A stretch of 64,000 bases of DNA, taken from assembly GCA_949130485.1 (NCBI GenBank), contig OX422202.1, forward strand, positions 1,393,501-1,457,500, written 5' to 3'. The stretch is from Agelas oroides. Lineage: Eukaryota > Porifera > Demospongiae > Agelasida > Agelasidae. Positions 29,710 through 39,723 of this stretch are shown here, piece by piece. The position numbers and the translations under genes are program-made. Numbering within the stretch: position 1 is the first letter of the stretch; every line of letters begins with the position of its first letter. The notes beneath the pieces were generated by a model that had not been told where the DNA came from, ran no database searches, and saw only the letters and a program-made list of their open reading frames with translations.

Positions 29710-32700
29710 CTAGTACGATCCAACACTTCTAGGGTCCATTGTGGTCCTGAGCGTGTGCCACTGCTCCACCCACTCTCCCGGGTGGGCCAGCATGGCCTCC
29801 CAGTGTGATATCTCCTCTCCGATAGAGTCCATCCACTCCTTGTGCTTTGCTGCACGGCCAGGGGTGGGGCCAAGACGAAGACCACCAATTAATTCATTCC
29901 CTTGCTTATGAAAATCCCAGACAGTCACCTCCAGTACCCTCTCTCTCGACAGCTCCTCCAGGGTCACCTTATCGTATGTGAACTGCTCCTCCCAGACTGG
30001 GTTCAGGTTGTTTTTAACCACCCCTGTCTTACGCTTCCCACTCGAGCTTTTGTCTGGCAACAGGTAGCACTTGACAAATGCGTCTGTTAACCCCTTAGCG
30101 TCTGTATTCAGCAAGTCTCTTGCCTGTTTCATAGTGATTTTGAGCGTTGCCTTGGTTTTACCCTTCTTTGTATCTCCCAGGGTTAGCATCAGAGCGACCT
30201 TGAGTTGACCTCTGTATGTGTCACCACCAGCCATCTCTCCCCCATCCTGCAAACAGTGGGATCAGCTGACATTGGATATGGTCGAGTATCACACACACAC
30301 ACACACACACACACACACACACACACACACAAGCACACACATACTCACACACACACACACACATATACACACGCACACATGTATGCACACACACACACAC
30401 ACACACACACACACACACACACACACACACACACACACACACACACACACACACACACACACACACACACACACACACACACACACACACACACACACAC
30501 ACACACACACACACACACACACACACACAATGCTGACCTTGTCTTGGAGTGTGTACCACTCATCTGTTGGGTCAGTGAGGTTCAGGTAAGAGAGGGGAAG
30601 ACGGACTTCTCCCAGAAACTGGTTCCTCCCGAATCTGTCCCAGTCCCACACACTCAGCCAGAGAGTACGAGAGCTCAGCTCAGCTTGAGGTAGCTTGTAC
30701 TGGGAGGAGAAGAGGAAGAGATGTAAATTTGTAGTCCACTCAGACCCACCCAGTAGCTGTCTAGTTTATGCCAACCTTCAGAGTTTCATTGTAGACGGGG
30801 TCCAGCGTCTTTCTTTTGATGCTGGTCTTCTTTTTCGAGTGTTTGCTTTTGTCTGGGAGCAGGTAGGTCTTGACGTAGGGGTCGGAGAGACCATTGCTGT
30901 CGGCAGCTGCTAGTCCTCTTGCTTTGTTCACATGAACCAACAGCTGCCCTCCTTTATACTGCACGCCAAACAACACCTCTCCAGTGATGTCGTAGTCTCC
31001 CTTCCCACCTGCTTCACTGTAGATGCTGGCCATGCTGCCAAAACTGGCTTCATCGTGTGCATGCTGTAGCCTCAACAAGTTAGAACTGCCCAGAGGTGTG
31101 GCACCCTGACAGAGATGTAGATTCAGTTTGAGAAATGGCCTCTACAGCTTGTTACTAATAGCACAAATTCAACTGTATTGACACTTTCCCTGCCATAGAT
31201 TGTCTTCTCCCTCCCATCCTCAACCCCCACCTTCTCCCGCCCATCCACCCTACCCCTCACCTCCCATCCACCCTACCCCTCACCTCCCATCCATCCCACC
31301 TCCTCCCCTCCCATCCTCCCTACCTCCTCCCCTCCCATCCTCCCTGCCTCCTCCCCTCCCATCCTCCTTGCTTCCTCCCCTCCCATCCTCCCTGCCTCCT
31401 CCCCTCCCATCCATCCTACCTCCTCCCTGCCTCCTCCCCTCCCATCCATCCTACCTCCTCCCCTCCCATCCTCCCCACCCTCCCCACCTCACATACTTTC
31501 ATCTGTGAAGTGTGACCATCTTCCTGGCCCTCTAGAGAGTCCTGAGAACTGCTCCGAGAAATGGCTATGCTTTCAGGACGTTGTCCCGGCTGCATCTCAT
31601 GATCAACTTGAATGGCAGGTGTAGACGACATTATCCCCTTCTCAGGAGTGCTCCTCCCTGACTGGACGGGGCTTGGGGTTCTTGGTGGTGGTGATGGCTG
31701 ATGTACAACTGGTCTAGGGTGGGCACGAGCAGTCTCTTTCACTCCGAACAGAGATCCAGAAATATTCTCGTCCATCTTGGAAGTCTGAGTTGGGGCTTCG
31801 TGGTTAGAGGGTAAGGTGACTTTAGAACCAAAGAGTGTTTTGCTGTCTCCTTGCATCTGGGGAGATGTTGGTTGGGACGTGGGCCTTTTGACCTTGCGAA
31901 ACTCATCCTCAGAGGGGTAGCTCAAAGGAGATGGCTGCTGGCGAGGAAGCCAGCTGGATGGTGGTTCCATGACTTCGTCTGTGTCAGCTAGAGGCTCACT
32001 CAAAGATGGAAGTGTTTTGCTGTCTCCTTGCATCTGGGGAGATGTTGGTTGGGACGTGGGTCTTTGGACCTTGCGGAACTCATCCTCAGAAGGGTAACTC
32101 GAAGGAGATGGCTGCTGGTGAGGAAGCCAGCTGGATGGTGGTTCCATGACTTCATCTGTGTCAGCCAGAGGCTCACTCAAAGATGGAAGTGTTTTGCTGT
32201 CTCCTTGGATCTGGGGAGATGTTGGTTGGGACGTGGGTCTTTTGACCTTGCGGAACTCATCCTCAGAAGGGTAACTCGAAGGAGATGGCTGCTGGTGAGG
32301 AAGCCAGCTGGATGGTGGTTCCATGACTTCATCTGTGTCAGCTGGAGGCTCACTCAAAGATGGAAGAGGCACGCTGGAGATATCGACCTTTCTAGGGTCC
32401 ATTGTGGTCCTGAGCGTGTGCCACTGCTCCACCCACTCTCCTGGGTGGGCCAGCATGGCCTCCCAGTGCGATATCTCCTCTCCGATAGAGTCCATCCACT
32501 CCTTGTGCTTTGCTGCACGGCCAGGGGCGGGGCCAAGACGAAGACCACCAATGAAGTCATTCCCTTGCTTATGAAAATCCCAGACAGTCACCTCCAGTAC
32601 CCTCTCTCTCGACAGCTCCTCCAGGGCCACCTTGTACGTGAACTGCTCCTCCCAGACTGGGTTCAGGTTGTTCTTGATCACCCCCGTCTTACGCTTCCCA

Positions 32701-38700: not shown

Positions 38701-39723
38701 GAGTCCACGTGTATGTGTGCAAACGTGGGTGTGTACACATTTGTGTGCGTAGGATGTGCGTGCACATGAATATTTAATGTGTGTGTATGAGAAGTGTGTT
38801 TGTGTGTGTGTTTATTATGAATGCAGGATGTGTGTACGTATATACATGTACGTGTGTTTATGTGTGCAAGAGTGTATGTAAGTGTATGCTCGTGTGTGTA
38901 AGAGTTTATGTAAGTGTATGTAAGTGTATGTAAATGTATGTTTGTGTGTGTAAGAGTTTGTGTAATTGTGTACGCAGGGTATGTGTGTGCTTGCATATGT
39001 GCAGTTGAGGGAATACACTTACGTACATCTTGACCAATCAAGACACTCAGGACTCAGTCAACCATGAAATTTTTAAAACCAGCTTTAGAGAGCTGGAGAA
39101 CCACATACCTTTGTTTACCACAAACAGTGCAGATGAATTTGGGAGGGGGCTTGCTGAACGCCTTACGACACTGTTTACAGACAAGGCTGACACAATTGGG
39201 GCAGTTTGCCCCCGAGTTGAAGATCAGTCCCAACGGCTGCTCGCAACAGGAACACTGGCGCTTGTCTAGAAACAACTTCTGGTGATACCTCTCCTGCTCA
39301 ATCTCCTGTCTCAGTGTGCTGTACATGTACAGAGTTGCTTCATTAAAATCTCTTAGAGGGTACACATTATATGAGGACATAAGCTTGCTGTGGTGGCAGC
39401 TAGCCACTACTGTAGGATACAACATAGTTCCTCCGCTATTGTTATATTTGCTACTATTTTGGTTATGTTGAATGCAAAACTGTGCACTTCTAGCATAGGC
39501 ATGATAGGGTCTGCAAATTCAACAGGCTGTGCAAGGATGGTTCCACATCTTACCCCAGGCGTACTCTATCCTTCGTCCTGATCTCCTGGTCTGCCTTCAG
39601 CACTCTCTCAATCTTCTTCCTCTCCTCCTCTGAGAGAAAGCTCAGGTCGAGCAGCGCCAACTGGTTGTTACCGTCAGCCATTTCGACCTCTTCCTCGGAA
39701 CGTGAGGAGACGAAATTACCCAT
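29710..39723 (-). CDS. SYTL: SYTL gene B: synaptotagmin-like protein with six C2 domains (A-B)x3
   Basis: Thirteen phased exons: 39723-39554, 39318-39109, 38656-38559, 37020-36443, 35904-35743, 35414-34692, 34483-34397, 34292-33846, 33670-33509, 32900-31497, 31105-30776, 30699-30538, 30246-29710; 1689 aa. Order: MGNFVSS start; Slp helix [20 protein letters not shown]; two-zinc finger with CSCC, CPNC, CKQC and CTVC; linker; C2A1 (~280-405), C2B1 (~410-585), C2A2 (~745-878), C2B2 (~890-1060), three 59-residue linker repeats, C2A3 (~1375-1510), C2B3 (~1520-1685). Each A domain is split after YNE(I/T)LK; each B is one exon and ends with [12 protein letters not shown]2 and A3 keep [11 protein letters not shown] and WDWD, so four of the five acidic calcium ligands; A1 lacks the first. 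B2 and B3 have WDFH in place of WDYD, losing one ligand. The model assumes all pairs lie in one transcript; no stop or promoter-like gap separates them. Confidence 0.9.
30289..30530. repeat. (CA)n microsatellite in the intron between C2A3 and C2B3 of gene B
   Basis: About 240 bp of CA units, interrupted near 30332-30380. It begins a few bases inside the donor at 30537. A homologous tract is in the matching intron of the first pair (35478-35738). Confidence 0.95.
31195..31490. repeat. CT-rich 20-bp minisatellite in gene B intron
   Basis: Tandem units around cctcctcccctcccatcctc, about a dozen copies, lie right after the donor of the C2B2/linker exon. On the gene's strand this is purine-rich GGGAGGAGG sequence with G-quadruplex-like runs. 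Confidence 0.9.
31836..32366 (-). repeat. Three 177-bp in-frame repeats encoding 59-residue linker units
   Basis: Within exon 10 of gene B the text gttttgctgtctcctt recurs exactly every 177 bp (31836, 32013, 32190). Each unit encodes [40 protein letters not shown] and a [11 protein letters not shown] segment. The three units differ by only a few residues, so the expansion is recent. Confidence 0.95.
33685..33815. repeat. 20-bp minisatellite (ggaatggaatgagtgtcatg)n in gene B intron
   Basis: About six units lie just upstream (minus strand) of the second half of C2A2. Shorter copies sit in the matching introns of C2A1 (about 35976-36050) and of gene C (about 53535-53590), so the repeat predates the duplications. 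Confidence 0.88.
34590..34687. repeat. (CA)n directly at the donor of the C2B1 exon of gene B
   Basis: The exon ends at 34692 and the intron reads GTTAGTGTGTG into about 49 TG units on the minus strand, so the 5' splice site borders the microsatellite. Confidence 0.92.
35478..35738. repeat. (CA)n in the intron between C2A1 and C2B1 of gene B
   Basis: About 260 bp of CA repeats with interruptions near 35500-35600, starting a few bases from the donor (GTTAGTGTGTG) of the exon ending at 35743. Confidence 0.95.
37105..37545. mobile_element. Two hairpin-MITE copies in gene B intron
   Basis: The first has the left arm tagcctcattcccaggcctt at about 37107 and the right arm gtgatcaaaaactggagcc to ggagtgaggctag at about 37411-37455, with unrelated DNA between. 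A second shorter pair (tagccttgttcccaagtctc to ttgggaatgaggctaa) follows at 37466-37545. Confidence 0.7.
37880..38285. repeat. (GGGACA)-type minisatellite in gene B intron
   Basis: Runs of gggacaggtggac and gggacagggggacagggaga fill about 400 bp. A ~120-bp block is itself duplicated (37935 and 38046 onward). The reading frames here are repeat artefacts. Confidence 0.93.

Follow-up and report, generated by a model that had tools for sequence, protein, structure and literature searches.

A candidate Slp/rabphilin-type gene with three C2A–C2B pairs in the sponge Agelas oroides

We describe a gene, M1, in a 64,000-nucleotide (nt) stretch of the genome of the sponge Agelas oroides (the window; contig OX422202.1, C20:1393501-1457500 of a 259-Mb assembly in 141 contigs, with 0 N in the window), which is predicted to encode a synaptotagmin-like protein (Slp) with six C2 domains. 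We give a probability of about 0.6 to the reading that M1 is one gene for a soluble tether of the Slp/rabphilin type carrying three C2A–C2B pairs. Known Rab effectors of the Slp type link the vesicle and the plasma membrane by one C2 pair. Thirteen minus-strand exons between positions 39723 and 29710 join into one open frame of 1,693 codons with a single terminal stop. All 12 introns have GT-AG borders, and the exon-end phases (2, 2, 1, then 0 at all later junctions) match throughout. An earlier note on this DNA had proposed such a run of 13 phase-matched exons, and the run proved correct at the coordinates given there. Exons 5–12 are in phase 0 at both ends, and the exon for the second part of C2A (part b) is 162 nt long in all three pairs. 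The linker exons between the pairs are open and in frame. The linker in exon 10 contains a repeat of three in-frame copies (31834-32366), spaced 177 nt (59 codons) apart and 95% identical.

The domains of the predicted protein also agree with the earlier note, which had listed a Slp homology domain (SHD) helix, a zinc finger and then C2 domains in the order A-B-A-B-A-B; the order was judged from alignments. Pfam PF00168 (C2) scored 516.7 bits over six stretches, and PF02318 (FYVE_2) scored 66 bits against a cut-off of 27.2. At E 0.01, the only other Pfam match was PI3K_C2 (48.4 bits), overlapping the fourth C2 domain, and no further domain of E-Syts, MCTPs or ferlins, such as SMP, was found. 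No transmembrane segment was noticed by eye, a predictor not having been used. The SHD1 helix and zinc finger (ZnF) aligned to melanophilin of 2ZET (E 1.7e-11) and to rabphilin-3A of 1ZBD (E 8.6e-9), and pairs 1 and 2 aligned end to end with the Syt1 C2AB structure. At the positions of the Syt1 Ca2+ ligands, the C2A domains have KDDDQ (A1) and DDDDQ (A2 and A3), and the C2B domains have DDDDD (B1, five of five Asp), DNDHD (B2) and DDDHE (B3). The C2A domains keep the basic strand (KRKTSIQKK or KKKTSIKRK; compare KRKTSIKRD of SYTL4), and the SYTL4 C2A letters (FGRNxFLGE and the KRKTSI strand) were verified in 3fdw.

Judged by these domains, M1 belongs with the Slp/rabphilin proteins and is nearest to Slp, as a variant and not an ordinary member, because it lacks the aromatic Rab-contact motif and does not have exactly two C2 domains, both of them defining features. 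The best single-C2 chains for the pair-2 C2A were SYTL4 (116.8 bits) and Syt5 (110.9 bits), with rabphilin-3A at 81.2–88.9 bits; for the C2B domains, no SYTL C2B chain was among the matches listed. The FYVE_2 zinc finger is found in Slp3–5, and the known Slp members have two C2 domains. M1 resembles Slp3-a, Slp4 (granuphilin) and Slp5 in having an SHD1 helix, an eight-cysteine zinc finger, a linker, a Slp-type C2A and a C2B, but differs from them in its six C2 domains instead of two, its missing Rab-contact Trp and its possible N-myristoyl start. Rabphilin-3A, DOC2 and RIM share Syt-type C2 domains with M1, and rabphilin and RIM also share a Rab-binding zinc finger head; however, they too have two C2 domains, and melanophilin was a better N-terminal match than rabphilin. 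E-Syts, MCTPs and ferlins resemble M1 in carrying many C2 domains per chain and in tethering membranes, but they have a transmembrane or hairpin anchor and are not known to have an SHD or a FYVE_2 finger, whereas M1 has both, and its domain order is different. In that other setting, fish esyt1b offers a precedent for the gain of C2 domains by internal duplication, having gained four, according to PMC2823689. More than half of Rab27 effectors have two C2 domains, according to a published account. In the open-access literature (titles and abstract openings, among the matches listed), we met no Rab-binding protein with more than two C2 domains, and the earlier note knew of no described RabBD protein with six.

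Three relatives of M1 were found. When the assembly was searched with the M1 head at E 1, six of the seven matches fell in the window genes (M1 and its sisters P and M2; Table 1). The seventh lay in a further SHD gene, Q, on contig C8; Q has a GSELIRKSL exon and a single C2A (C2 score, 83.5 bits) followed by a stop. The four Slp-type genes found have six (M1), three (P), three (M2) and one (Q) C2 domains, and none of the four has two; the other C2 loci (85 matches, 117 candidates scored) were not individually inspected, and a Slp or rabphilin gene with a divergent head could be missed in this count. All eight zinc cysteines are kept in M1 and P, with FYVE_2 scoring 25 bits in P scanned without its exon 1, below the cut-off; the FYVE_2 finger was not found in M2 or Q. 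Three other FYVE_2 hits in the assembly (two on C1 and one on C9) were rejected as Slp heads: they scored 26.8–29.2 bits with FYVE_2 against 27.2–37.2 bits with plain FYVE, which was the better model in two of the three, and the M1-head search missed them all. A tblastn search of the window with 12 C2 domains and two SHD-ZnF heads found no remnant of the second C2A or the zinc finger that M2 lacks, or of the second C2B that P lacks. Two C2B-like hits (E 0.35 and 0.7) sit in an array of 21-nt repeats at 42.7–45.0 kb and were taken as chance. The predicted proteins of M1 and M2 begin with MGN, those of P and Q with MMASV and METVP, respectively. In M1, the ATG of this MGN is the first in frame after an upstream stop (open reading frame (ORF) 39550-39837), and in M2 it is likewise the first in-frame ATG of exon 1. 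Two repeats were seen by eye on the minus strand of M2 introns: a short tandem repeat with units like CTAGTTTGTCTAACACGTTGCATTATGACAAAGAGTACAGCTAC in intron 1 (about 58150-58530) and several copies of a roughly 105-nt unit (AGTGAGCAACAAATGGCAGGATGAGGAAGC...) in intron 4 (52000-52700).

In Slp, SHD2 carries an aromatic Rab-contact motif of the SGxWF type. The residue aligned to melanophilin W127 (2ZET chain) is Tyr in M1 (TREYAL), and the corresponding stretches of M2 (TGELFP), P (SQDYMP) and Q (SVDLVP) also have no Trp. A six-frame pattern scan for SGxWF-type motifs yielded two matches, but each sits next to a stop codon and neither lies in a plausible exon. The SHD1 helix, a major Rab contact in 2ZET according to PMC11231147, has LLDLSFL, VLKAD and several other stretches invariant in M1, P and M2. 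Human RAB27A had 71 matches in the assembly at E 0.001. Twelve loci were fetched, representing 11 Rab-like places (L044 and L045 belong to a single gene, and several Rab genes lie in L046 and L047), and Rab27 was the best scorer, relative to Rab3 and Rab8, in none of these 11, the remaining matches not having been compared with all three. At four loci (L034, L036, L047 and L048), Rab8 and Rab27 scored close to each other, and seven further Rab-like loci were compared with Rab27 alone. The assembly has both a Rab3-like exon (85% over 53 aa) and a Rab8-like exon (93% over 42 aa). The Rab-dependence that the earlier note had attributed to the tether is therefore unsupported so far, given the loss of the Trp in four of four genes and the absence of a best-scoring Rab27 among the 11 places compared; of the head itself, the well-kept SHD1 helix speaks for Rab binding and the Tyr at the W127 position does not. 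In the Rab3-like gene (C12:8407500-8420500; L044, L045), the last exon occurs in two near-identical copies about 2.2 kb apart (L044:865-1161 and 3040-3336), which are perhaps alternative or duplicated ends.

Phylogenetic trees of the separate domains indicated how the pairs arose. In a tree of C2A domains only, the first-pair C2As of M1, M2 and P separated from the second-type C2As with an ultrafast bootstrap (UFBoot) support of 93. When SYTL4, Syt1 and Q were added, the same split was recovered (Shimodaira–Hasegawa-like approximate likelihood ratio test (SH-aLRT) 99.1, UFBoot 88), and the second-type C2As no longer formed one group. In the C2B tree, the first copies of M1 and M2 split off (UFBoot 93; SH-aLRT/UFBoot 91.4/86 with Syt1). 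The second-type C2B group (M1_B2, M1_B3 and M2_B2) had a support of 84 without Syt1 and 55.2/59 with it, and the C2B of P was not firmly placed. Because the first-pair C2As group across M1, M2 and P, the A-B pair was probably doubled before the three window genes separated. The simplest reading of the later history is that the last C2B was then lost in P and the second C2A in M2, and that Q, the C2A of which groups with the second C2A of P (97.2/99), comes from the distal portion of a gene like P.

The third pair of M1, by its sequence, is younger and is patchily like pairs 2 and 1. The first part (part a) of its C2A is 97.8% identical to that of pair 2, and pairs 3 and 1 are 100% identical over the 62 intron nt that precede part b. 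In repeat family D11, a 229-nt stretch is 93% alike in pairs 1 and 3, against 79% in pairs 2 and 3. The case for a patchwork rests on these three segments, and such a mosaic is a sign of gene conversion or of unequal exchange among the pairs. Part b itself is 93.2% identical to pair 2 and 90.7% to pair 1, and over the 40 nt that follow part a no two pairs are alike (50–72%). The 60 nt after part b, 98.2% identical between pairs 1 and 3, were given little weight because they are mostly a GT repeat. The tandem copying of a whole A-B pair, as proposed in the earlier note, thus holds for the unit that was copied but not for its all having occurred within M1: the first doubling looks older than M1, since P and M2 carry second-pair domains, and pair 3 came later and patchily, with signs of exchange inside M1.

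Purifying selection acts on all the C2 copies. In all 30 comparisons of domains of the same type, pN was well below pS; dN/dS was 0.14–0.36 in 28 of them, and dS was saturated in the other 2. In 2,000 runs of a neutral simulation, with branch lengths that we chose from the dS values, the sequence stayed free of stops in 2.4% (A2) and 1.05% (B2) of runs. As DNA, exon 10 matched six places in the 259-Mb assembly, all inside the cluster of window genes, and exons 11–13 gave 55 matches beyond their own place, which lay in the cluster or in an intron GT repeat (query bases 570–817). The coding parts of these exons therefore match the cluster alone, indicating that there is no stray second copy elsewhere in the assembly.

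If M1 is expressed as one protein, its N-terminus would sit on a secretory vesicle via a Rab, for which Rab3 or Rab8 would be likelier than Rab27 here, perhaps helped by a myristoyl group on the MGN start, which fits the N-myristoylation rule. Six C2 domains on long flexible linkers could then hold the plasma membrane at multiple sites. The basic strand of the C2A domains would bind acidic lipid without Ca2+, the pair-1 C2B, with its five Asp, would add a Ca2+ response, and the C2B domains of pairs 2 and 3 would be weakly Ca2+-dependent or Ca2+-independent. Overall, the hold on the membrane would be mainly Ca2+-independent. The extra pairs would raise avidity and reach. With exons 5–12 bounded by phase 0 on either side, the reading frame could survive the gain, loss or skipping of the second pair together with its linker.

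Several observations weigh against such a tether. The single transcript is predicted from a gene model built on DNA alone. The Rab-contact Trp is missing from every one of the four genes, and which C2 domains serve in lipid binding and which in the Ca2+ response is judged from their residues only. The putative myristoylation is drawn from the MGN start and the N-myristoylation rule, a 5' exon could possibly have been missed, and the proteins of P and Q start without MGN. Poly(A) hexamers are no guide to the number of transcripts: the minus strand has none between 38412 and 29374, but in P no hexamer follows the stop for 1.4 kb downstream and four occur inside the gene.

It is doubtful, though worth weighing, that the main products are shorter proteins, made by alternative splicing and holding one A-B pair or two, the six-C2 form being rare or absent. 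Skipping pair 2 (exons 8–10) would keep the frame, and the sister genes manage with three C2 domains and Q with one. However, M1, M2 and P all lack a stop in their first C2B exon, which ends in a splice donor leading to a further C2 and argues against pair 1 being the end of the gene, and the inter-pair linkers are open and coding-like, with the in-frame 59-codon repeat. We regard as unlikely a Rab-independent tether in which the N-termini of M1 and M2 are held by N-myristoyl, perhaps with palmitoyl on CHTCLC as well in M2, and the Rab site is degenerate. That both genes have MGN at the first in-frame ATG of their exon 1, that none of the four genes keeps the Trp and that the zinc-finger exon was not found in M2 would all fit; nevertheless, the SHD1 helix that makes a major Rab contact in 2ZET (PMC11231147) is the best-kept part, and M1 and P retain their eight zinc cysteines. 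An assembly error that created the third pair, or the whole repeat, is highly improbable. The near-identity of part a between pairs 2 and 3 and of the 62 intron nt between pairs 1 and 3 could suggest one, but the three pairs differ in C2B (79–87% identity), linkers and introns, the window has no N, and the coding parts of exons 10–13 match the cluster alone, which lies on a 7.2-Mb contig. This uniqueness counts against a duplicate elsewhere but says nothing against the locus itself having been collapsed or expanded. One gene with three pairs remains the preferred reading.

More tentatively, and with the odds against it, these genes could represent a Slp class built on the A-B pair as a portable phase-0 cassette, the number of C2 domains (6, 3, 3 and 1) having changed by exchange within and between genes and giving graded tethers, some of them lipid-anchored instead of, or besides, being Rab-bound. 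If so, an early-branching animal lineage has tethers of graded reach and Ca2+ response, and the cassette number in M1 may differ between individuals. With one, three or six C2 domains following a head of the same type, these genes form a natural series in which the effect of C2 number on tether length, avidity and Ca2+ response could be tested directly. The series further suggests that tethers of regulated exocytosis diversified in the sponge lineage, which has no neurons.

Table 1. Exons of M1 and the two sister genes in the window (positions in the window)
Feature	Positions	Strand	Content	Basis
M1 exon 1	39554..39723	-	MGN start and SHD1 helix	aligned to melanophilin SHD1
M1 exon 2	39109..39318	-	SHD1 end and 8-Cys FYVE_2 zinc finger	PF02318, 66 bits
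M1 exon 3	38559..38677	-	SHD2-like stretch (TREYALSP...), without the Trp of the Rab-contact motif	
M1 exon 4	36443..37020	-	linker and pair-1 C2A part a	gene model, Pfam
M1 exon 5	35743..35904	-	pair-1 C2A part b, 162 nt, phase 0-0	gene model, Pfam
M1 exon 6	34692..35414	-	pair-1 C2B (5/5 Ca2+-ligand Asp) and linker	gene model, Pfam
M1 exon 7	34406..34483	-	linker exon, 26 aa	gene model
M1 exon 8	33846..34292	-	linker and pair-2 C2A part a	gene model, Pfam
M1 exon 9	33509..33670	-	pair-2 C2A part b	gene model, Pfam
M1 exon 10	31497..32900	-	pair-2 C2B and long linker with 59-codon repeat	gene model, Pfam
M1 exon 11	30776..31105	-	pair-3 C2A part a	gene model
M1 exon 12	30538..30699	-	pair-3 C2A part b	gene model
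M1 exon 13	29710..30246	-	pair-3 C2B and stop	gene model, Pfam
Sister gene P	19716..28771	+	8 exons, 831 aa; SHD1, ZnF, C2A-C2B-C2A	
Sister gene M2	48410..59073	-	6 exons, 750 aa; MGN start, SHD1, C2A-C2B-C2B	

The window has other features as well. Most of the gap between M1 and M2 is filled by a 6.2-kb array (40291-46505) of the 21-nt unit GTCCAGTCTTGTCCTAATGCT, with about 77% matches and open in several frames. A short repeat, CCTGGGAACGAGGCTA, occurs at 42 places in the window at up to 2 mismatches, against 0.02 expected by chance (e.g., 15237, 21792, 29065, 50620 and 56078), often as close inverted pairs, and may represent the ends of small mobile elements. In a bacterial and archaeal collection, its 21-base form matched one contig, from a Cycloclasticus metagenome-assembled genome of a Poecilosclerida sponge, the ORFs of which look eukaryotic by eye; an ORF of that contig matched 69 places in the assembly, at just 20–32% identity. 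The 16-base form matched two viral contigs that were otherwise unlike the window. The minus strand at about 10500-17140 carries fragments of a protein kinase gene, one of which, at ~14.2 kb, aligns to TTK/MPS1 from the PDB (E 2e-18). Outside the window, C11:8123348-8192210 contains a 70-kb cluster of about nine Syt-type C2A/C2B exon pairs, most of which share a strand while one unit is inverted; the cluster could be either tandem synaptotagmin-like genes or another multi-C2 locus.

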